NCBI GenBank assembly: GCA_000156115.1
Contig: DS995276.1
Span: forward strand, 1,191,523-1,255,522
DNA length: 64,000 bases
Direction of reading: 5' to 3'
Source of the DNA: Rhodobacteraceae bacterium HTCC2083
GTDB lineage: Bacteria > Pseudomonadota > Alphaproteobacteria > Rhodobacterales > Rhodobacteraceae
Shown here: one piece after another, positions 31,233 through 57,184 of the stretch
How positions within the stretch are numbered: the first letter of the stretch is position 1
Layout of the letters: each line of letters starts with the position of its first letter
Notes under the pieces: generated by a model
What the model was told of the DNA's origin: nothing
Seen by the model: the letters and a program-made list of their open reading frames with translations, nothing else
Databases searched by the model: none
Translations under genes and position numbers: made by a program

Positions 31233-32376
31233 TTGGCAAAATGGGGGCTTTGGCATTTATGTGCACTGGCCTTTTTGCGAGGCGAAATGTCCCTACTGCG
31301 ATTTCAACTCGCATGTTTCACGTGAAATAGACGAAGCACGCTGGCTCAACGCTTATCTCTGCGAATTAGATCGCGCCGCTGTTGAGTTGTCGGGTCGCGT
31401 AGTGAATGCTGTTTTCTTTGGCGGCGGCACGCCCAGCCTCATGCATCCCGACACGGTCGCCGCAATCATCGAACGCATCCGCAAACATTGGCCGGTGCCT
31501 AACGACCCAGAAATAACACTTGAGGCAAATCCAGGTTCTGTCGAAGCTGGCCGATTTCGCGGCTATGCAGATGGCGGCGTCACGCGGATCTCAATGGGAG
31601 TGCAAGCTCTCAATGATCGCGACCTGAAACGTCTTGGTCGCATTCATACAGTTGATGAAGCAAAGAAAGCCTTCAATATTGCGCGTTCAACTTTTGAGCG
31701 GGTTTCTTTCGATCTTATCTACGCAAGGCAGGATCAAACGCTGGAGAACTGGAAGAAAGAGCTAAATGAAGCCCTTTGTTTGGCAATCGATCATCTATCC
31801 CTTTATCAGCTAACTATCGAGAAAGGCACAGCTTTTTCGGCTCGTTATGAAAAAGGCGGTCTCACAGGGCTTCCTGTGGAGGATCTCGCTGCAGATATGT
31901 ACGACGCCACCAACGAGCTCTGCGAGAGAGCCGGTCTTTTTGGTTACGAAGTCTCCAATTATGCCAAGCCCGGCGCCGAGTCGCGGCACAATATGATCTA
32001 TTGGCGCTATGGCGACTACCTTGGCATTGGCCCCGGTGCGCACGGTCGTCTAACCGTAGATGGCACAAAATACGCGACTGAACATTTCAGGATGCCAAGT
32101 GCGTGGCTCGAAAACAGCGAACGCGGTAAGGGCGAAAAAATTCGTGACGGCCTAAGCAACACAGATCAGGCTAACGAATACCTGATCATGGGCCTTCGCA
32201 TCACCGAAGGTATTGATAGAGCCCGACTAGAGAATCTGGCTGGCGTGCCTGTCGATCAAAGCTCCCTCGATCATTTGAATGACCTAAACCTAATTACGCA
32301 GGACGGCGCCAATTTGCGTACCACTCCGCAAGGGCGCTTGCTTTTGAATTCTGTAATCGGCGAATTGGTCTTCTAG
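31222..32376 (+). CDS. hemW: HemW, radical SAM haem chaperone (coproporphyrinogen oxidase-like)
   Basis: A 384-residue radical SAM protein. The cluster motif is Cys19-X3-Cys23-X2-Cys26 (CEAKCPYC), preceded by GIYVHWPF and followed by FFGGGTPS. HemW proteins carry and transfer haem and lack the extra Cys of true HemN (CPYCDF rather than CxxCGC), so it is probably not the oxygen-independent oxidase. The start is a TTG inside rdgB, with AAAGGG upstream. A near-perfect parS sequence lies in codons 31-36. It overlaps the convergent parB by 4 bases. Confidence 0.92.
   Translation: MNADWQNGGFGIYVHWPFCEAKCPYCDFNSHVSREIDEARWLNAYLCELDRAAVELSGRVVNAVFFGGGTPSLMHPDTVAAIIERIRKHWPVPNDPEITLEANPGSVEAGRFRGYADGGVTRISMGVQALNDRDLKRLGRIHTVDEAKKAFNIARSTFERVSFDLIYARQDQTLENWKKELNEALCLAIDHLSLYQLTIEKGTAFSARYEKGGLTGLPVEDLAADMYDATNELCERAGLFGYEVSNYAKPGAESRHNMIYWRYGDYLGIGPGAHGRLTVDGTKYATEHFRMPSAWLENSERGKGEKIRDGLSNTDQANEYLIMGLRITEGIDRARLENLAGVPVDQSSLDHLNDLNLITQDGANLRTTPQGRLLLNSVIGELVF
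31314..31329. promoter_or_regulatory. parS-like site inside hemW
   Basis: TGTTTCACGTGAAATA differs by one base (C to T at position 15) from the 16-base parS palindrome found twice nearby. It encodes part of HVSREI in HemW. Likely a third, perhaps weaker, ParB-binding site about 1 kb from parB. Confidence 0.65.
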
Positions 32377-33269
32377 CTGATGCTAAGAATTCGGCAAATC
32401 TCGTCAAGCTGATCCAAGGACGCATACTTGATGCTCACCTGACCGGACTCTCCACCTGCCTTGTGATCAACCGAAACTGTTAATCCCAAAGCAGCAGAGA
32501 GATCACTTTCGAGCGCCTTAGTGTCTGCATCCTTCTCTTTCATACTACTTTTTCCGCGCGATGAAGGCGAAGAGTTGCCGCCATCTTTCTTCTTTGCCAA
32601 AGCCTCTGTCGCGCGAACTGACAGCCCCTGCTGCACGACTTGCTTTGCCAGTGCTGATGGATCGTCAGAAGTAATCAGCGCACGCGCATGTCCTGCTGAT
32701 AGTTTTCCACCCACCAACATATCCTGGACATCACTCGGCAACTGCAACAAACGCATCAAATTCGCGATGTGACTGCGGCTTTTGCCAAGTTCTTCAGCAA
32801 GCTTTTCCTGCGTATGGCCAAACTTATCCATCAACTGACGATAGCCCGCTGCCTCTTCAACAGGATTAAGGTCTGCACGTTGAATATTTTCAATGATTGC
32901 GACTTCAAGAACTTCGGCATCCGTGAAATCACGTACAAGAACAGGAATTTCATGAAGTTGCGCCATCTGCGCCGCACGCCAGCGACGTTCGCCAGCTACA
33001 ATTTCGTATTCATCTTTCTCATTAGCTCGTTTGCGCACAATCAAAGGCTGGATAATGCCTTTCGCTTTTATAGACGCTGACAGGTCTTGCAGATGCTCGT
33101 CAGTAAAGCTTCTACGCGGTTGGTCAGGGTTTGGAAAAACCCTCTCGATCGGAACGACCAAATCGGGGCGCGCGGGCGTTGTTACTGTGTTTGTTGGTTC
33201 AGGACCTACATCAGCCATCAAAGCGGACAATCCACGTCCCAAACCGCGGTTCTTTTTGCTATCTACCAT
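32373..33269 (-). CDS. parB: Chromosome partitioning protein ParB
   Basis: A 298-residue ParB/Spo0J. The N-terminal CTP-binding ParB/Srx region has the family motif IQPLIVRK and the arginine patch GERRWRAAQ; the central helix-turn-helix (EKLAEELGKSRSHIANLMRLLQLP) reads parS; the C-terminus dimerises. The start NRGLGRGLSALM is the ParA-contact peptide. It follows parA by 12 bases. It loads on parS and spreads to build the partition complex near the origin. Confidence 0.97.
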   Translation of the reverse strand: MVDSKKNRGLGRGLSALMADVGPEPTNTVTTPARPDLVVPIERVFPNPDQPRRSFTDEHLQDLSASIKAKGIIQPLIVRKRANEKDEYEIVAGERRWRAAQMAQLHEIPVLVRDFTDAEVLEVAIIENIQRADLNPVEEAAGYRQLMDKFGHTQEKLAEELGKSRSHIANLMRLLQLPSDVQDMLVGGKLSAGHARALITSDDPSALAKQVVQQGLSVRATEALAKKKDGGNSSPSSRGKSSMKEKDADTKALESDLSAALGLTVSVDHKAGGESGQVSIKYASLDQLDEICRILSIS

Positions 33270-33281
33270 GATTTTATCCTT

Positions 33282-34091
33282 TTAAAGCTGGAGGTTAGCG
33301 TTCTTCTCGATAACTTCTCGAGCCAATTCATTATACGCCTGCGCACCTTTTGAAGCAGGATCATAATCCAACACGGGCAACGCAAAAGACGGTGCTTCGC
33401 TAACACGAACGTTGCGCGGGATCTTCGTCTTAAAGACCATCTCACCTAAGTTCTCACGAGCATCGTTCTCCACCTGCTGTGATAGATTATTCCTCGCGTC
33501 AAACATTGTAAGAACCACACCTTCGATCCGTAGATCAGGGTTTGCCGTTTGACGAACCTCGCGCACCGTCAGCATCAGTTGGGATAACCCTTCCAACGCG
33601 AAAAATTCACTTTGTAGTGGCACAAGAACGGAATGCGACGCCACCATAGCGTTCACAGTAAGCAAATTTAGAGAAGGCGGGCAATCAATCAGGATAAAGT
33701 CGAAGTCGTAATCGTCCATCAGGGGTTGGCGTAACGCGTCATGTAACAGAAAACTCCTCTTTTCGTTCGCCATCAGCTCGATATCCGCAGAACTGAGATC
33801 AATTGTGGCCGGAACGATCATCAAACCATCCGTTTTGGTTTTCTGGATCACCTCTTCAAGCGTAACATCATCTAGCAAAAGCTCATAAGTCGTTAATTCG
33901 CGGGAACGCGCATCGATGCCTAAGCCTGTCGACGCATTTCCTTGCGGATCTAAATCAATGATCAGCACACGAAGCCCTTCGGCCACCAATGACGCCGCCA
34001 GGTTAATCGTCGTCGTCGTCTTACCAACACCACCTTTTTGGTTAACGACAGCAACAATTTTCGTGTTTGTTGTACGTGTGGGATCAGACAT
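33282..34091 (-). CDS. parA: Chromosome partitioning ATPase ParA/Soj
   Basis: A 269-residue ParA with deviant Walker A KGGVGKTTT (near residue 20), DLDPQGNAS and the Walker B-like FILIDCPPSLNLLT. It binds DNA as an ATP dimer and pulls ParB-parS complexes. I choose the ATG at 34091 (MSDPTRTTNTK); four extra upstream codons are open but overlap rsmG further. The start overlaps the rsmG stop, so rsmG-parA-parB is probably one operon. Confidence 0.97.
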   Translation of the reverse strand: MSDPTRTTNTKIVAVVNQKGGVGKTTTTINLAASLVAEGLRVLIIDLDPQGNASTGLGIDARSRELTTYELLLDDVTLEEVIQKTKTDGLMIVPATIDLSSADIELMANEKRSFLLHDALRQPLMDDYDFDFILIDCPPSLNLLTVNAMVASHSVLVPLQSEFFALEGLSQLMLTVREVRQTANPDLRIEGVVLTMFDARNNLSQQVENDARENLGEMVFKTKIPRNVRVSEAPSFALPVLDYDPASKGAQAYNELAREVIEKNANLQL

Positions 34092-34698
34092 GAATAATCT
34101 CATTCACTTTCAAAATAACGGCTTCGGCGTTAGTTTCACTATTAAAGGCTTCGTATTTAAAATGCCATGAGTCGCGCGCCATATTAACTTCTTTTTCCCA
34201 ACGTTGGCCTTTTGGGAAAAGACAATGTCCGGTCTTAGCTAGGTGAAGCTTCGCATATTGAAGCAACATAGGCAGATCAGAAAGAGCGCGCGCAGATAAG
34301 ATATCAGCATTTTGCGGATCAACCCCTTCAATCCTTTGGGCAATGACAGTGATTTTAGCCCCGGTTTCGCGCGCGACGGTGCGAAGGAACGCGCATTTTC
34401 TTTGATCACTTTCGACCAAAGTAAACTGTGTTTGGGGCGCAAGTTCTTTCGAGATTATTGCAAGAACCAGGCCTGGGAAGCCTCCTCCTGATCCGAGATC
34501 GACCCATTTCAGTGTTTTCGGGTCAGCTAGCTTGAACATCTGTGCCGAGTCAACAATGTGGCGAGTCCAGATATCATCCAAGGTACTACGAGACACTAAG
34601 TTTATCTTAGGATTCCACTTTTTCAGAAGCTCTACGTACATCGAAAGTCGCTCAAATGTTTCACGTGAAACATTTAGGTTACCAATCCGCTGCTCCAT
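34084..34698 (-). CDS. rsmG: 16S rRNA (guanine527-N7)-methyltransferase RsmG
   Basis: A 204-residue SAM-dependent methyltransferase (GidB). The SAM motif is WVDLGSGGGFPGLVLAI. The N-terminal NVSRETFERL codons contain a perfect parS site. It methylates G527 of 16S rRNA, the site linked to streptomycin response. It directly abuts mnmG upstream (stop 34699, start 34698) and overlaps parA. Confidence 0.95.
   Translation of the reverse strand: MEQRIGNLNVSRETFERLSMYVELLKKWNPKINLVSRSTLDDIWTRHIVDSAQMFKLADPKTLKWVDLGSGGGFPGLVLAIISKELAPQTQFTLVESDQRKCAFLRTVARETGAKITVIAQRIEGVDPQNADILSARALSDLPMLLQYAKLHLAKTGHCLFPKGQRWEKEVNMARDSWHFKYEAFNSETNAEAVILKVNEIIHV
34657..34672. promoter_or_regulatory. parS: parS site inside the start of rsmG
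   Basis: The perfect 16-base palindrome TGTTTCACGTGAAACA, the standard bacterial parS sequence bound by ParB. It encodes VSRET of RsmG. About 5 kb from the putative origin. Confidence 0.93.
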
Positions 34699-36567
34699 CT
34701 AGGCCCGCTTTCTTTGACGAAGCTTAGCCAACAACAGTGTGAGCGCCGCGGGCGTCATACCATCAACACGACCTGCTTGAGCAAGGTTCATAGGCTGGAC
34801 CTGACCTAGCTTCTGCTTCAATTCGTTAGATAAACTGTCGATTGTAGTATAATCGAAGCCTTTAGGGATGTTCTGCGCCTCGTCACGCTTCAGCGCGTCT
34901 ACGTCCTTTTGCTGACGGGCAATATAGTTGGAGTACAACGCATCCCTTTCGACCTGCTCACGGATAACCCTCGGCGTCTCTGTCAGTTCTGGGAACAGGT
35001 CCAAAACATCTTCAAATTTTACATCGGGAAAAGCCAAAACTTGAATGCCATCACGACGATTTCCATCTTGATTCACTGAAATGCCGCCTGCGTTAATCTC
35101 TTTCGGTGTCAATAACTTAGCCTTAAGAGCGCTGACCACGCTCGCGATCTGCAATTTCTTTTCTTCAAATGCCAAACGACGTTTATATCCGACACAGCCA
35201 AGCTCAATCCCCAAGGGTGTAAGACGCTGATCGGCGTTGTCAGCACGCAACGAAAGACGGAATTCTGCGCGAGAGGTGAACATACGATAAGGTTCAGTCA
35301 CACCACGCGTTGTGAGATCGTCAATCATCACGCCAATATAGCTATTCGTTCGGCTAAAAATCACAGGATCACGACCCTGGATTTCCAAGGCTGCGTTCAA
35401 ACCAGCGACGAGTCCCTGCGCGGCGGCCTCTTCATATCCTGTTGTACCGTTTATCTGGCCCGCGAAGAAAAGGCCTTCGACCCCCTTAACGCTCAAGCGA
35501 GCATCCAAAGCTCGTGGGTCGACATAGTCATATTCAATCGCGTAACCCGGCTGCAAGATCTTCGCGTCCTCCAAACCTAAAATTGTTTGAACGTAAGCGT
35601 TTTGAACATCCTCTGGCAGGCTTGTAGAAATTCCATTGGGATAAACAGTGTGATCATTAACACCTTCAGGTTCTAAAAAGACCTGATGAGACGTTTTGTC
35701 GGCGAAACGGACGATCTTATCTTCTATCGAAGGACAATATCGCGGGCCAATGCCGTCGATATGGCCACCATACATCGCGCTTTTCTTGAGGTTTTCCTCG
35801 ATCAAAACGTGCGTACGCATATTTGTATGCGTGATGCCACAGTTTACTTGTTGCGATGTGACGCCTTTGGACATGAAGGAAAACAGCACAGGATCTTCAT
35901 CGCCCGGTTGGCTTTCCAAAATGTCCCAATTAATCGTACGACCATCCAAGCGCGGCGGCGTACCTGTTTTTAGACGTCCAAAAGGAAGTCTGAAGCTATC
36001 TATTCGCTCGGCGAGCTTGATAGATGGCTTATCACCCATGCGGCCACCCGGTTTTGAGACGTCGCCAATGTGAATGACGCCGCGCAGGAAAGTCCCCGTC
36101 GTTAGCACAACAGCGCTACAAAGCAATTGGGTTCCATCATCGAGAGCTACACCAACAACCCGAGCGCCTTCCATCAAGAAATCAACGGCCTCCCCTTCAA
36201 CAATTTTCAGGTTTTCCTGTGTTTCGATCTCTTTAAGCATTTCACCGCGATAGATTGAACGATCTGATTGCGCCCGCGGCCCTTGAACAGCAGGCCCTTT
36301 GCGACGGTTAAGTAAACGGAATTGAATACCGGCCTTATCAGCAACACGCGCCATGACGCCATCAAATGCATCTATTTCGCGAACGAGATGACCCTTACCA
36401 AGACCACCAATCGCTGGATTACAGGACATAACGCCGATGCCATCTTTGGACAGCGTCACTAAAGCGGTGCTAGACCCCATACGAGCAGACGCATGCGCAG
36501 CGTCACAACCCGCGTGACCACCGCCAATAACAACAACATCAAAATTCAATTGTTTCACGTGAAACAT
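34699..36567 (-). CDS. mnmG: tRNA uridine-5-carboxymethylaminomethyl synthesis enzyme MnmG
   Basis: A 622-residue FAD protein (GidA). It has the dinucleotide motif [17 protein letters not shown], the central [11 protein letters not shown] and the insert [16 protein letters not shown], and the C-terminal helices that bind MnmE. With MnmE it modifies the wobble uridine of certain tRNAs. The first codons (MFHVKQ) contain a perfect parS. It lies 3 bases after mnmE and abuts rsmG. Confidence 0.97.
36551..36566. promoter_or_regulatory. parS: parS site inside the start of mnmG
   Basis: A second perfect TGTTTCACGTGAAACA palindrome, overlapping the mnmG start codon region (MFHVKQ). About 3.2 kb left of the putative origin and 1.9 kb from the rsmG copy. 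Confidence 0.93.
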
Positions 36568-39287: not shown

Positions 39288-39737
39288 TCAGAACTTCACA
39301 ACGACCGATACAACGATGAGAACCATCAAAAGGGTGGGTACCTCATTCATCAAGCGATACTGACGCCCTGTGAGGCTATTTGTGCCGTTAACGAAATCTT
39401 TACGACGTTTACCTAACCATTCATGAAAGATCGTCATCAAAATCACGCTAGCACCTTTGACCCAAGGCCACCAAAAGGACCAATCTACAATTCCAGGGGT
39501 CAGCACCAAACAAAGACCGAAGATCCAAGTGGCAATCATTGCAGGCTGCATAATCACTTTGAACAGCTTCATTTCCATGTCTTGGTAAGTCTCGTGCAGC
39601 AGACCTGTCAGATCAACGCGTTCTACATGATTCACAAGCAATCTAGGAAAGTAGAACAACCCTGCCATCCAAGAAATCACTGCCATGATGTGCAGTGACT
39701 TGATCCAAGGATAGGCGGAAGCGAGAAAATCAGACAT
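39288..39737 (-). CDS. hemJ: Protoporphyrinogen oxidase HemJ
   Basis: A 149-residue, four-helix inner-membrane protein of the HemJ (UPF0093) family, which converts protoporphyrinogen IX to protoporphyrin IX in bacteria without HemG or HemY. The conserved His is in KSLHIMAVISWMAGLFYFPRL and the tail RLMNEVPTLLMVLIV is typical. It borders the putative origin on its left. In relatives hemE often lies here, but it is absent from this window. Confidence 0.92.
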   Translation of the reverse strand: MSDFLASAYPWIKSLHIMAVISWMAGLFYFPRLLVNHVERVDLTGLLHETYQDMEMKLFKVIMQPAMIATWIFGLCLVLTPGIVDWSFWWPWVKGASVILMTIFHEWLGKRRKDFVNGTNSLTGRQYRLMNEVPTLLMVLIVVSVVVKF

Positions 39738-40123
39738 GTCCTATCTTTAATAATAATAAATAAAAGATAAAAGGTTGATGATTAAGTAGGGATCACCCTT
39801 TCTGTGGATTAATGATTTTTCCCCAGAAGTTTGAACATGTTGATAAGCTTGTAATCGAATACCTATAAGTAACATAATTTATAATTATTATTATTAAAAA
39901 CAATTAGTTAAGATATTTTATGATGTGGATATCCTAGGGACAGCGCGCGTATCATTCTCAACTTTGACGAAATGTAGCTTTTCAAAGTTATCCAAATCCA
40001 CAGGGTAGGAATCGGTGTGCATTTTTGTGGCACGGCGTTGAACTCCCCAGCTTGCCAAGTCACGCGGAGTTGCGCAGTAATGCTCCTTAATAAATCCTTA
40101 CTCTGATCCACGGAATTATCCAC
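39738..40123. other. oriC: Putative chromosomal replication origin (oriC)
   Basis: A 386-base non-coding gap, far more AT-rich than its neighbours. DnaA-box-like 9-mers: TTATCCACA (40116-40124, perfect), TTATCCAAA (39988-39996), and on the minus strand TAATCCACA (39803-39811) and ATATCCACA (39924-39932), each one mismatch; weaker ones at 39994 and 40104. Two AT-rich tracts (39745-39770 and 39862-39920, with ATAATTATTATTATTAAAAA) could be the unwinding element. Flanking order rho-hemJ | maf-aroE-coaE-dnaQ-secB matches the Caulobacter origin neighbourhood, and genes diverge from it. parAB and parS are within 9 kb. The function is inferred. Confidence 0.82.
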
Positions 40124-40723
40124 ATGCCTGCGCCTCTTATCCTCGCCTCTGGTTCTGAAACGCGCCGTGATATGTTGCAAAACGCAGGGCTAGAGATCGA
40201 AGTCATCAAGCCGCGTGTTGATGAAGGCATGATGCGCGATGCTATGTTGGCAGACGAAGCCAATCCACGCGATATTGCAGATGCGCTGGCGGAGATGAAA
40301 GCACGCAAGATCAGTGAAAAGCACCCTGAACGTCTGGTGCTTGGCTGTGATCAAGCGCTCGATTTTCGCGGAATCCTCTATTCTAAGGCGACGTCAAAAG
40401 AGAAAGCTGTGCAACACCTGACCGAACTGCGCGGCGCGCGTCATTCTTTGTTAAGTGCTGCAGTGCTTTATGAAGACGGCAAACCCATTTGGCGACATAT
40501 TGGTCAGGCGCGCCTGACCACACGCGTTTATTCTGATGCCTTCATAAGTGATTACGTGGATCGCAATTGGGACGAGATCCGACATTGCGTCGGGTGTTAC
40601 CAGCTTGAGGCCGAAGGCGTGCGCCTGTTCGCGCAGGTCGAGGGCAATCATTTCACTATTCTTGGCCTTCCTCTTATTGAGCTGGTCAATTATCTCACCC
40701 TCAAAGGGGTACTCCAGCAATGA
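40124..40723 (+). CDS. maf: Maf-family nucleotide pyrophosphatase
   Basis: A 199-residue Maf protein, a house-cleaning nucleotide diphosphatase linked to division arrest. The family start LILASGSETRRDMLQNAG and the core LGCDQALDFRG are clear. Its start codon overlaps a perfect DnaA box, so DnaA could affect its transcription. It opens the rightward operon maf-aroE-coaE-dnaQ, with each junction overlapping. Confidence 0.93.
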   Translation: MPAPLILASGSETRRDMLQNAGLEIEVIKPRVDEGMMRDAMLADEANPRDIADALAEMKARKISEKHPERLVLGCDQALDFRGILYSKATSKEKAVQHLTELRGARHSLLSAAVLYEDGKPIWRHIGQARLTTRVYSDAFISDYVDRNWDEIRHCVGCYQLEAEGVRLFAQVEGNHFTILGLPLIELVNYLTLKGVLQQ

Positions 40724-41553
40724 GCGATCAAAAAATTCCGTTGGCGGGCGTGATTGGTCACCCGATTGCACATTCCAAGTCGCCGCAGCTACATGGGCAT
40801 TGGCTGAAAAAGAACGGCATCAAGGGTCATTATATTCCGATGGATATCGCGCCTAAAGATTTAGAAAGCGCGATCCGCTTGTTGCCGAAAATGGGGTTTG
40901 TCGGCGTCAATGTGACGATCCCGCATAAAGAAGCAGTGCTGAAAATTGCAGACCTTGTGACGGATCGCGCCAAGCAGATTGGCGCTGCAAACACGTTGAT
41001 ATTCCGCAAAGATGGCAAAATTCACGCGGATAACACGGATGGATACGGATTTATGCAAAACCTGCTGCAATCTGCGCCAAAATGGGATCCGCGCGCAGGC
41101 CCTGCGATGGTTCTTGGCGCTGGTGGTGCTGCACGGGCAGTTTTGGCGTCTTTCATTGACATTGGTGTGCCTGAAATCCTGCTCAGTAATCGGACACGAG
41201 AACGTGCGGAAACACTCAAGGCTGATTTTGGCGATAAGATTACGGTCGTGGATTGGGTACAAGCCGGCAATGCTATTGAGGGGGCTAATGCAGTGATCAA
41301 CACCACCTCCCTTGGTATGATTGGAAAACCTGAAATGCGCGTTCCTCTGGATGCGCTCGCGCCAGGGATGTTGGTGAGTGATTTGGTTTATACCCCTCTA
41401 CAAACCAAACTTTTGCGCGCGGCGACAGAGGTAGGCGCGACGGCGGTGGATGGCCTCGGCATGCTTTTGCACCAAGCGACACCGGGATTTGAGCGTTGGT
41501 TCAAAGTGAAGCCCGAAGTCGATGATGAACTGCGCGCGGTAGTGTTGCGATGA
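40720..41553 (+). CDS. aroE: Shikimate dehydrogenase (NADP)
   Basis: A 277-residue enzyme reducing 3-dehydroshikimate to shikimate for aromatic amino acids. The substrate site AGVIGHPIAHSKSPQLHG, the catalytic Lys in TIPHKEAVL, NTDGYGF and the cofactor loop GAGGAARAV are intact; SNRTRE suggests NADP preference. It overlaps maf and coaE by 4 bases each. Confidence 0.96.
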   Translation: MSDQKIPLAGVIGHPIAHSKSPQLHGHWLKKNGIKGHYIPMDIAPKDLESAIRLLPKMGFVGVNVTIPHKEAVLKIADLVTDRAKQIGAANTLIFRKDGKIHADNTDGYGFMQNLLQSAPKWDPRAGPAMVLGAGGAARAVLASFIDIGVPEILLSNRTRERAETLKADFGDKITVVDWVQAGNAIEGANAVINTTSLGMIGKPEMRVPLDALAPGMLVSDLVYTPLQTKLLRAATEVGATAVDGLGMLLHQATPGFERWFKVKPEVDDELRAVVLR

Positions 41554-42143
41554 GCTTTAAACTTGGTCTTACCGGCTCTATCGGTATGGGCAAATCTACG
41601 ACGGCGCAAATGTTCGCGGATGCAAGCTGCGCCGTTTGGGATGCGGATGCGGCTGTGCATCGGCTTTATGCGCCAAATGGTTTGGCGATTGCGCCTGTTG
41701 CTGAGTTGGTTCCTGATGCCTTGAATGGTGACACTTTGGACCGCGAGATACTGCGTGATGCTATTCGAGCAGATACGACGCTTTTACCGAAGATTGAAAA
41801 GATCGTGCATCCATTGGTCGGGCAAGACCGTGCTCGCTTTATTGAAAATGCGACTGCAGACATACTGGTTTTTGATATTCCGATCCTCTTTGAGACAGGT
41901 GGTAACAAAGCGATGGATGCTGTTGCGTGCGTAAGTGTTGATGCAGATACACAGCGCACACGTGTTCTGGCGCGTGGCACCATGAGCGAAGAAGATTTTC
42001 AGATGATCCTGTCGCGTCAAATGCCCATTGAAGAAAAGCGCGCGCTTAGTGATTATGTGATCGAAACTGACACGCTGGACCATGCGCAAACGCAGGTTTT
42101 GGCGATTGTTGAGGACATCAAAAGGAAGCTGCAAAATGCGTGA
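41550..42143 (+). CDS. coaE: Dephospho-CoA kinase
   Basis: A 197-residue P-loop kinase for the last step of CoA synthesis. Walker A is GSIGMGKSTTAQMF, with the family motifs DADAAVHRLY and VFDIPILFETGG. It overlaps aroE by 4 bases and dnaQ by 8 bases. Confidence 0.96.
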   Translation: MSFKLGLTGSIGMGKSTTAQMFADASCAVWDADAAVHRLYAPNGLAIAPVAELVPDALNGDTLDREILRDAIRADTTLLPKIEKIVHPLVGQDRARFIENATADILVFDIPILFETGGNKAMDAVACVSVDADTQRTRVLARGTMSEEDFQMILSRQMPIEEKRALSDYVIETDTLDHAQTQVLAIVEDIKRKLQNA

Positions 42144-42825
42144 ACTGGTATTGGACACGGAAACAACAGGTTTTGATCCGCAGCAAGGTGATCGCATCGT
42201 TGAAATTGGCGCGGTTGAGTTGATTAACCAGATGCCAACGGGGCGTACGTATCATCAGTATATCAACCCCGAACGCGCCATGCCGGATGACGCGTTTCAG
42301 GTACATGGCTTGGGCGATGATTTTCTTCGTGATAAACCTGTGTTCAAACAAATTGCGCAGGAGTTTCTAGATTTCGTCAAGGATGACACAATGGTCATTC
42401 ATAACGCTTCTTTCGATATGAAGTTTTTAAACGCTGAGCTGGGTTGGCTCAACATGAAGCAATTACCGATGGAGCAAGCGCTCGATACTCTGGCAATTGC
42501 ACGCAAACGTTTTCCAGGCTCGCCCGCATCATTGGACGCTTTGTGCCGTCGCTTTAATATCGACAATTCAAACCGAACGCTGCATGGCGCTTTGCTTGAT
42601 TCCGAAATTCTTGCGGAAGTGTATTTGGAATTGTTGGGTGGTCGTCAGCCTGGTCTCGTTCTTGCCAATACTGGCGGCAGCGCGAGTGGTGGATCAGAGG
42701 AAACTTGGCGCGCATCCAAACGCCCTACCCCACTTCCCTCTCGGATCACCGAGGAAGAAGCCAAAGCGCATACAGCCTTCGTTGAGAAACTTGGCGAGGA
42801 TGCACTTTGGTCTAAGCTTGGTTAA
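42136..42825 (+). CDS. dnaQ: DNA polymerase III epsilon subunit (proofreading exonuclease)
   Basis: A 229-residue DEDDh 3'-5' exonuclease. ExoI is LDTETTGFDP, ExoII VIHNASFDMKFLN and ExoIII HGALLDSEILAEVYL. It proofreads within the replicative polymerase. The frame is open 18 codons upstream into coaE; the ATG at 42136 (MRELVLDTETTG) is the family start. Its stop is 5 bases from the convergent secB stop. Confidence 0.96.
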   Translation: MRELVLDTETTGFDPQQGDRIVEIGAVELINQMPTGRTYHQYINPERAMPDDAFQVHGLGDDFLRDKPVFKQIAQEFLDFVKDDTMVIHNASFDMKFLNAELGWLNMKQLPMEQALDTLAIARKRFPGSPASLDALCRRFNIDNSNRTLHGALLDSEILAEVYLELLGGRQPGLVLANTGGSASGGSEETWRASKRPTPLPSRITEEEAKAHTAFVEKLGEDALWSKLG

Positions 42826-54245: not shown

Positions 54246-57184
54246 GAGCGCACTCCACCATCGTCGGGCTGATCCGTTTCATCCCATTCCCCAAAGCGGG
54301 AAAGCTGATCGTAGCGTCCGAAACCTTTTGACTTCTCCATCGCGCGTCGGGCCGTAAAGCCTTTATTAGACACTTGATAGTCTGAAATCAGCTTGTAAAG
54401 TTCTGCCCAAACTTGTGCTGTTGGTTTGTCATCCAAAGGCGCTTCCACTGATTTTGTACCAGAGCCGACGCCAAGATATGTCGCGCCCTCAATGTGTCGC
54501 GGATGTAGGCTATCAAAGTCACCACGCTCCGCCATCGCGGCCTCTAGTAAGAGCTGCATATCAAAGGCGAGTTGTTGGGGTTTGCTCGGAATTGCGCCCG
54601 TTTTGTAGTCATACAGATATGCGCCGCCGCGCTCGTCGAGATCAATGCGATCAGCCTTAACAGTCAACGTAAAGCCGAGTTCGGGGAGGGTGCTTTCACC
54701 CTTCACTTCCAAGCGAGACGACATAGCAATTTTTTGCCTTTCGCGCTCCTCAGCGACGAAATCGTCAGCCAAACGTGCGATGCGCGCGGCCCACATCAGG
54801 CGCGCGGAAGGCCAATCCACATCGCTATCAAAAATACGCTTCGCGTGTGCCATGAGATCAGCGGCGGTTTCCCCTTTGTCCCAACTGCGTACGAAATCCT
54901 CAAACACCTGATGCACCGCGATCCCGCGCAAACGCGCATCAGCGGTTTTCACGAGACTATCGAGCGGTGCCAATCGTAAAACATGCTTGGCATAGATTTC
55001 ATAGGGATCGCGTACGAGCGTTTTGATTTCCGTGACAGACAGCTGATTTGGCCGAACTTCAATCGCGGGTTTTGGGGAAGGGCGTTTAGCTGGGTTCGCC
55101 CCAATAGGGGTCTCAAGCTGATGCGCCCGTTCTAGCCAATCGTTGCCACGCGTTTGCATCTGTTCGATTGTGACTGGTCCGTCTTGGTCAGGCAACCCGT
55201 TCATCAAATTAGTTAACCGATTGAGCCATCGCGAGGGTACAGTTTGTGCATCATCAGAGCGCTGGGCGCGGGTAAGCCAGACTTCAGGTGCGGCAATCGC
55301 TTGCTGAAAATCATGTGCGGACAGACCGATACGGCGTTCAGGCAACAAAAGCCCTGCATCTGCGCGCATACGGCGGTTGAGCCAAGGATCGGGGCTGGGT
55401 GCTTCGGGCCAGCTACCCTCGTTTAGACCCGCGAGTATTAGCAAGTCCGCGCCCTGAACGCGCGCTTCGAGCGTTCCCCAGATCAACACGTTCGGATGAC
55501 CCGCATCAGGATTGCGCACTTCGCCGCGCGACAGAACACCACCAAAAAGATCAGCGTAATCACGTGTGGAGAGATCAGGCAAAGCATCCAAATTGGAACG
55601 CAGCGCAACCCATTGCGACATCGCCTCGCGGCCTGCGCCTTCTTTCCAAAGGTCACCCGTGCCCACATCTTGCGCCCCTTGGGAGATGCGCTCAGCTAAA
55701 CCTATGTGACGTTCGGCCAGCTCGACTGCGTTCTGAGGACCATCGCAAAGATGCCCGCAAAATGTGTTTGCGACCCAGTCAATCCAGCTTTTAGCACCGT
55801 CCAGCTTGTTATCTTTCGCCCAAGCCAAAAGGCTGTCTTTGGTCGGGAAAGCGGGGCCGTTCTTGCGGATCGAAAGCTCTAGCTCGCGGGTTAACAAAAG
55901 ATGCGTTCCGCGCTCTGAACCCGTATGTGTCAGGGGGTGCTTTAGTAGCGTCAACAAAGCTTCTGCATCAAGCGGTCGCGTGAACAACTCAAGCACATGA
56001 CGCAAAAACCGACCTGGTGGGGAAAGCTGCAACGGCAAACCCGCGCTATCGTCGGGTTTGATATCCCAGCGATCCAAAGCTGCGGTGACTTGACGGGTTA
56101 ACATGCGATCCGGAGTGATAAGTGCGGCCGTTTTTCCCTGTTCAGCAGCAAAGCGAAGCCGCATTGCGATGGCAAGCGCCTCTTCGCGGCTTGTTTGCGG
56201 TTCCAAAAGTGTGACGTGCTGCATTGCGCTTGGCAGGTCGCCCAGATTAGGACCGTCGCGCAGCCATCCGTCTGTCACGGGAACGGGGCGCAAAGCGAGC
56301 GAGACAACCTTATTGCGGGCGGTGTCCACTGGAGGCGTGTCATGCCAAAGCGGTACGGTTTTTGGATGCATGGAAAGCGATTTCAACAGGTTTGCAAAGC
56401 GATATTGCGGGTGATCTTCTGGGTCCATGCGCGTTGGGTGATCCGCGATCAGCTCTTCCCAAACTTCGGGTGGCGTATCAGTGTCAAAGCCGGGCAGAAT
56501 AACGGCACCCTGAGGAAGTTTTGAGATGGCTTCCATCAACAAAGCAGTGGTGCCGCGTGACCCTGTTGAGCCCGCCAAAATCACAGGATGTGTTGGTGGA
56601 TTGATTTGCCAATCCGCAATCTGGGCAAGAACCACAGCGCGTGCGCGTGCCTCGTTATCGGGGCGTACTTGCGAGAGATCAAGGAAGCGACCAACAATGC
56701 TGATAAATTCCTGCGCTCGCGCCCAATGGCCGGAAATGTCGGTAACTTCGAGGTTTGAAATATCCTCTAGCGGTACGCCCTCGCCCTGCATTTCATCCAT
56801 GAGACCAGCAAGTGAATCCGCTAAATCAAAAAGCGAACTGCGGGAGGCCAAAGCAGGATTGCGCCGCAACAATGCGTCAACCAGCGCGATGATTTCGATG
56901 CGCCGCGATAGAGGGGAGATCGCTTGGGGGATCGCATGAAACTTGGGGTGTTTTCCGATGTTCCCCAGTAGAGTGATCTGCGGTAAAAGCTTGGCCTTTC
57001 CATCAATGAAAAGGGTGCTCACACGTCGCCGCATCCGCGCTGTATTCACGATGATCTGTATCTGCGCGATGTCGGTTGGCGCATTATTTTGAGTACGATC
57101 TAGTACGCCCTTAACAAGCGCCTTTGGAAAATCAACACCAAGGCCGAGCGCAAATATGCGTGGGGTTTCTTGCGCCTCAAACAT
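54242..57184 (-). CDS. addB: AddB, inactivated-helicase nuclease subunit
   Basis: A 980-residue protein of the alphaproteobacterial AddB type. The N-terminal helicase-like region is divergent (no clear Walker A), and the C-terminus has a RecB-like nuclease with VKADRIDLDERGG and YLYDYKTG. It is the Chi-sensing and nuclease partner of AddA. It overlaps addA by 4 bases and the MurU-like gene by 8 bases, so it is coupled to both. Confidence 0.93.
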   Translation of the reverse strand: MFEAQETPRIFALGLGVDFPKALVKGVLDRTQNNAPTDIAQIQIIVNTARMRRRVSTLFIDGKAKLLPQITLLGNIGKHPKFHAIPQAISPLSRRIEIIALVDALLRRNPALASRSSLFDLADSLAGLMDEMQGEGVPLEDISNLEVTDISGHWARAQEFISIVGRFLDLSQVRPDNEARARAVVLAQIADWQINPPTHPVILAGSTGSRGTTALLMEAISKLPQGAVILPGFDTDTPPEVWEELIADHPTRMDPEDHPQYRFANLLKSLSMHPKTVPLWHDTPPVDTARNKVVSLALRPVPVTDGWLRDGPNLGDLPSAMQHVTLLEPQTSREEALAIAMRLRFAAEQGKTAALITPDRMLTRQVTAALDRWDIKPDDSAGLPLQLSPPGRFLRHVLELFTRPLDAEALLTLLKHPLTHTGSERGTHLLLTRELELSIRKNGPAFPTKDSLLAWAKDNKLDGAKSWIDWVANTFCGHLCDGPQNAVELAERHIGLAERISQGAQDVGTGDLWKEGAGREAMSQWVALRSNLDALPDLSTRDYADLFGGVLSRGEVRNPDAGHPNVLIWGTLEARVQGADLLILAGLNEGSWPEAPSPDPWLNRRMRADAGLLLPERRIGLSAHDFQQAIAAPEVWLTRAQRSDDAQTVPSRWLNRLTNLMNGLPDQDGPVTIEQMQTRGNDWLERAHQLETPIGANPAKRPSPKPAIEVRPNQLSVTEIKTLVRDPYEIYAKHVLRLAPLDSLVKTADARLRGIAVHQVFEDFVRSWDKGETAADLMAHAKRIFDSDVDWPSARLMWAARIARLADDFVAEERERQKIAMSSRLEVKGESTLPELGFTLTVKADRIDLDERGGAYLYDYKTGAIPSKPQQLAFDMQLLLEAAMAERGDFDSLHPRHIEGATYLGVGSGTKSVEAPLDDKPTAQVWAELYKLISDYQVSNKGFTARRAMEKSKGFGRYDQLSRFGEWDETDQPDDGGVRS

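Follow-up and report, generated by a model that had tools for sequence, protein, structure and literature searches.

A predicted chromosomal origin between hemJ and maf in Rhodobacteraceae bacterium HTCC2083, with a conserved DnaA box at the maf start codon

Using motif scans, GC-skew profiles and comparison with relatives, we find that the intergenic gap separating the divergent genes hemJ and maf is in all likelihood the chromosomal origin (oriC) of this bacterium, and of the kind that is standard in its family. In the 64-kb stretch of DNA that was analysed (the window), the open reading frames delimit this gap as exactly positions 39738-40123, a length of 386 bases. The assignment, first proposed in an initial annotation of the window, is supported by a cluster of DnaA boxes, a switch in GC skew, parS sites nearby and conservation across the Rhodobacteraceae. 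The outermost box is fused to the start codon of maf, and the conservation of this fusion among relatives may be the one point here that is new.

Boxes, composition and skew of the hemJ-maf gap

We scanned for DnaA boxes with the consensus TTATCCACA, counting matches with up to one mismatch, and found one perfect and four one-mismatch boxes in the gap (Table 1), in keeping with the earlier count of one perfect and at least three one-mismatch boxes. The boxes are in reverse orientation on the hemJ half of the gap and in forward orientation on the maf half. None of 5000 Markov sequences with the dinucleotide make-up of the gap reached five boxes (mean 0.15). Moreover, the gap is the densest box cluster in the window and sampled stretches taken together (765 kb, or 19%, of the 3.95 Mb chromosome), within which no second place has at least three boxes per 350 bp; a locus with denser boxes, which had been named as evidence that would speak against the call, did not emerge from this sample. 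Two other sites in the genome carry two perfect boxes close together (C5:1433025/1433042 and C5:3117602/3117614, C5 being the main contig), compared with one perfect box in the gap; they were set aside as origin candidates, being without three boxes per 350 bp. A genome-wide search for directly repeated boxes returned one match with three mismatches, which is not above control. The strong AT richness ascribed to the gap is borne out by the 160-bp segment of lowest GC in the 64 kb (GC 0.24), which starts inside it at 39746.

The order of the flanking genes is also as the initial annotation described it, with a leftward series from parB to hemJ, a rightward series maf-aroE-coaE-dnaQ and the gap between them. 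The latter four genes overlap one another and, judged by this arrangement, look like one operon. Both perfect parS sites lie 3-5 kb to the left of the gap, and parS and parAB are found within about 8 kb of it. We take the par/gid and maf-aroE-coaE-dnaQ neighbourhood to be shared with that of the Caulobacter crescentus origin, Cori.

Table 1. Features of the predicted origin and its surroundings (positions in the window)
Feature	Position	Strand	Basis or remark
parS, 1 mismatch	31314-31329		8 kb left of the gap
parB	32373-33269	leftward series	named by eye from the sequence
parA	33282-34103	leftward series	named by eye from the sequence
parS, perfect, TGTTTCACGTGAAACA	34657-34672		at gidB start; motif search
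parS, perfect	36551-36566		at gidA start; motif search
hemJ	39288-39737	-	best NCBIfam TIGR00701, 131.8 bits, slightly below cut-off 138.05
Predicted oriC	39738-40123		between divergent hemJ and maf; boxes, skew, gene order, conservation
AT-rich tract (AAT repeats), candidate unwinding region	39746-39775		beside hemJ; composition, conservation
GATGATTAAGTAG tract	39777-39789	+	local form of a GATGATG...GTAGG-like family element
DnaA box TAATCCACA, 1 mismatch	39803-39811	-	same sequence in the six genus members compared
DnaA box TTATCAACA, 1 mismatch	39838-39846	-	consensus scan
DnaA box ATATCCACA, 1 mismatch	39924-39932	-	perfect in 3/5 genus relatives
DnaA box TTATCCAAA, 1 mismatch	39988-39996	+	consensus scan
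Weak CtrA-like site TTAATAAATCCTTAC	40087-40101	+	1 mismatch to TTAA-N7-TTAA
Weak DnaA box TGATCCACG, 2 mismatches	40104-40112	+	12 bp upstream of the 40116 box, in phase
Perfect DnaA box TTATCCACA	40116-40124	+	final base coincides with the A of the maf start; GGAA just upstream
maf, Maf-like nucleotide pyrophosphatase family	40124-40723	+	best NCBIfam matches under curated cut-offs
aroE	40720-41553	+	4-bp overlap with maf
coaE	41550-42143	+	4-bp overlap with aroE
dnaQ, DNA polymerase III epsilon	42136-42825	+	overlaps the end of coaE

The window sits on a contig of 3,953,882 bp in an assembly of 4,018,415 bp, and we followed the chromosomal skew in sampled 20-kb stretches and in a contiguous 104 kb around the window. 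Skew is negative in all eight stretches sampled left of the window and positive in all ten sampled between the window and 3.07 Mb on the right (two of them near zero); the two sampled past the terminus are negative again. Within the window, it is negative in each of the five 8-kb pieces to the left of the gap and positive in two of the three to its right. The running G-C count of the 104 kb has its minimum at window position 39684 (-2763), 54 bases from the gap, and a second minimum at 55826 (-2744), only 19 units shallower; these being nearly equal, skew alone cannot choose between them. Carried out on the 104 kb and the sampled stretches, the skew check that had been proposed with the original call favours the gap by the place of the deepest minimum and the opposite signs on either side, but is blunted by the second minimum. 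It is between 46000 and 56000 of the window that the skew falls below zero again, producing the second minimum; in the 48-56 kb piece, which is negative, every open frame of at least 200 codons lies on the minus strand, perhaps reflecting a local inversion.

In the terminus region the skew has its maximum at C5:3286665, about 78 kb from the exact antipode of the gap. When the terminus stretches were searched with a looser pattern, a dif-like site emerged at C5:3288495-3288522, which is 1.8 kb from this maximum and differs from E. coli dif at 7 of 24 positions; the arms from the gap to this site measure 2.06 Mb and 1.90 Mb. Allowing up to three mismatches, the dif-like pattern has a single match on the main contig here and a single match in each of 8 relatives among 25; all 8 are among the 15 relatives belonging to the family, and the 10 from outside the family give none. 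The reversed pattern, used as a control, matches in none of the 26 genomes. An E. coli-like dif pattern gave a single match, with three mismatches, at C5:1054937, which was ruled out as lying on the origin side. Contig C3 (1-17408) at first seemed to hold two dif-like sites. Its two ends, however, share 922-924 bp at 99.8% identity, as in an unclosed circular plasmid, and this overlap duplicates what is a single site.

An alternative account of these data is that the gap only holds promoters for the divergent genes, together with DnaA boxes of a regulatory kind, and that the true origin lies elsewhere, whether near 55.8 kb, at dnaA (C5:1532134) or at hemE (C5:986653). The divergent hemJ and maf do need promoters in the gap, and the running skew has its second, nearly equal minimum at 55826. 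However, no box with up to one mismatch occurs between 48588 and 64000, the interval around that minimum, and there is no change of skew sign at hemE or dnaA, the stretches at 1.00 and 1.10 Mb being negative and those from 1.35 to 2.05 Mb positive; both of these places were rejected on this ground. Nor does a promoter region on its own account well for five boxes far beyond chance, for parS nearby, or for the conservation of both the gap and its boxes presented below, and we regard this alternative as very improbable.

The origin locus in the family and in Caulobacter

For comparison we fetched 100 loci around hemJ, made up of 20 from family genomes, this one included (L022-L041), and the best 80 of 585; finding loci by hemJ favours genomes that keep the hemJ neighbourhood, and the best 80 of 585 favour near relatives. 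A further ten loci, L042-L051, of which two belong to the same family, had no maf beside the hemJ match and were left out. In this set, with the best 80 of 585 included, maf lies directly beside hemJ in 93 of the 100 loci, across gaps of 357-455 bp, and of the other seven, two have ppsR/DUF299 between, three have something else and two are too short. Thus hemJ-oriC-maf is the usual layout in the family. Counted per genome over 25 family genomes, with this one among them, hemJ is followed by maf in 17 and by ppsR in two; the remaining six gave no hemJ-maf or hemJ-ppsR arrangement when searched by hemJ. The 95 gaps of the maf and ppsR classes, again with the best 80 of 585 included, hold a mean of 3.3 boxes compared with 0.11 in Markov controls, so the comparison across the family that the initial annotation called for finds both gap and boxes conserved. 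GANTC and GATC show no enrichment in the family gaps. In one relative with a single-contig genome (G008), the running skew minimum of 80 kb falls about 1.1 kb from hemJ, and the skew sign is wrong in 2 of the 12 stretches sampled there if the terminus is assumed to lie opposite. In two family members (L031 and L038) ppsR still separates the origin from maf, which is possibly the older layout.

Kopejtka et al. 2019 predicted oriC for 101 Rhodobacteraceae chromosomes (PMC6699656), and according to the available portion of that study the predictions were curated by proximity to the skew minimum, a local GC minimum and proximity to parAB. The gap shows all three properties, the skew minimum being placed on the 104 kb and the sampled stretches and parB and parA being named by eye, and it holds a DnaA box cluster as well; on these points we noticed no difference from the origins of that set.

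The accessible part of the description of Caulobacter crescentus Cori (PMC1914354) presents an origin that, like the gap here, is AT-rich, intergenic and provided with five DnaA boxes. Cori is flanked by hemE and DUF299/COG1806, whereas here about 244 kb separate hemE from the gap and a DUF299/ppsR family search of the genome gave no match, so that both genes are indeed missing beside the gap, as had been remarked at the outset. The accompanying description of the locus as a compact version is apt relative to Caulobacter, but not as a special trait, since this layout is the usual one in the Rhodobacteraceae (in the 93 of 100 loci above, which include the best 80 of 585). The same part of that description gives Cori five CtrA sites and an IHF site; the gap has one weak CtrA-like site and no exact IHF match, and the window, also lacking an exact match, has three IHF matches with one mismatch. 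Across the family gaps (best 80 of 585 included) CtrA sites have a mean of 0.75 per gap compared with 0.31 expected, and exact IHF matches a mean of 0.27 compared with 0.04 expected.

The predicted unwinding side

Reading inwards from hemJ, the gap presents the AT-rich tract, then GATGATTAAGTAG, then the first reverse box. The AT-rich tract is kept in six members of the genus and, in a looser form, in many of the family gaps. As for the tract that follows it, 52 of 95 gaps (best 80 of 585 included) contain GATGATG in their first 200 nt, against an expectation of 2.4, which points to a conserved element; this genome carries a shorter GATGAT form. We consider the GATGATG tract a probable, candidate unwinding element of uncertain type that would mark the unwinding side. 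That an AT-rich tract is followed by one with a three-base period and then by a DnaA box is the order expected from the BUS/DnaA-trio module, which in the accessible part of its description has 5'-TAG repeats (PMC8287927), whereas this tract reads mainly 5'-GATGATG and is no more trio-like than controls. With a trio match defined as a DnaA box, a spacer of up to 16 nt and at least three trios, there is a formal match of four beside the 39924 box; over the 95 gaps, however, the mean trio run of 2.62 is hardly higher than the 2.49 of the shuffled-tail control and lower than the 3.29 of the A-middle control, and the DnaA-trio reading of the tract was set aside as not exceeding these controls.

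The single-strand folding of the gap is ordinary (z -1.45). In the predicted fold the AAT/ATT tracts at 39748-39765 and 39880-39897 pair with each other; by eye, the latter tract is common to at most one close relative.

From this arrangement we infer that DnaA would bind the box cluster of the gap, and that melting would most likely start on the hemJ side, where the AT-rich and GATGATG-like tracts adjoin the first box. Two forks would then depart from the gap in opposite directions. At the right edge stand two forward boxes spaced 12 bp, the last of them fused to the maf start codon and taking up the spacer between purine-rich, ribosome-site-like bases and the ATG.

A DnaA box overlapping the start of maf

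The perfect box of the gap shares its last base with the maf start, as the A of the ATG, in agreement with the initial annotation, which had a DnaA box overlapping this start codon. To place this overlap in the family, we took as maf starts the ATG, GTG or TTG closest to the extrapolated place in 92 loci, namely the 93 with maf next minus L039, which has no start codon near the expected place. A box with up to one mismatch ends exactly on the first base of the maf start in 52 of these 92 loci (best 80 of 585 included), among them this genome and five congeners, and 26 of the 52 boxes are perfect (in loci that likewise include the best 80 of 585). The exact overlap spans many genera and is seen in 43 of 76 loci from named genomes among the best 80 of 585. 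Within 60 nt of the start, offset 0 is found in 52 of the 92 loci and offset -12 in 12, with no other offset in more than four. A forward box ending at the maf start or up to 35 nt upstream of it is present in 80 of the 92 (best 80 of 585 included), and no reverse box with up to two mismatches occurs in any of them from 30 nt upstream to 12 nt downstream of the start. Positions -12 to -9 are purine-rich in the 52 loci (G at -11 in 36, G or A at -10 in 51) and read GGAA ahead of maf here; the box thus occupies the stretch that separates a sequence resembling a ribosome site from the ATG. On a quick tree of the 92 Maf proteins the overlap needs 15 changes compared with a shuffled mean of 30.2. 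The well-supported branches of this tree force only 2 changes, so that it gives no firm sign of independent gains. Literature searches brought up no report of such a box at the start of maf, though this speaks only weakly for there being none, and the available portion of the text of the Rhodobacteraceae study has no mention of a start-codon box (PMC6699656).

We lean towards explaining the overlap as an effect of packing, whereby the outermost box of the origin came to meet the first gene once ppsR had been lost, with no regulation of maf by DnaA. Both ppsR-containing origins carry, near the same edge but off the start codon, pairs of weak forward boxes in a 12-bp phase (up to three mismatches each), which favours the boxes being parts of the origin onto which maf moved, and 40 of the 92 loci are without the exact overlap. 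What packing explains less readily is that a single exact register, in forward orientation, has been held over many genera. The conserved start-codon box and the overlapping maf-aroE-coaE-dnaQ genes make it possible that DnaA bound to this box represses or times the operon around initiation. A perfect, conserved box at the start of the first gene, the frequency of nearby forward boxes in the other loci and the presence of dnaQ, which codes for a replisome subunit, in the same overlapping gene run are all consistent with such control. A box within an origin, however, needs no second role, and in a simple scan the promoter-like forward matches stand at 39849 and 39926, with none from 39956 to the maf start; the four promoter-like matches in 39600-40300 are little above the shuffled mean of 2.1 (sd 1.3). 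We treat control of the operon around initiation as a tentative and rather unlikely reading. The link from origin state to maf expression that the initial annotation drew should be toned down to a possibility, while the position of the box itself is real and conserved. The fuller proposition, that the outermost oriC box serves across a large part of the Rhodobacteraceae as the spacer between ribosome-binding site and ATG and that the loading of DnaA directly shuts or times the maf...dnaQ operon, appears to us doubtful.

Placing the origin in the hemJ-maf gap also gives the rough terminus and the replichores of the chromosome, which are needed for gene-dosage and cell-cycle arguments. The fusion of a box with the maf start, for its part, offers a simple testable case of an origin possibly regulating a neighbouring gene directly. 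If DnaA loading does act on this operon, it would constitute a built-in wire from origin firing to the nucleotide pool, division and fidelity via Maf and DnaQ.
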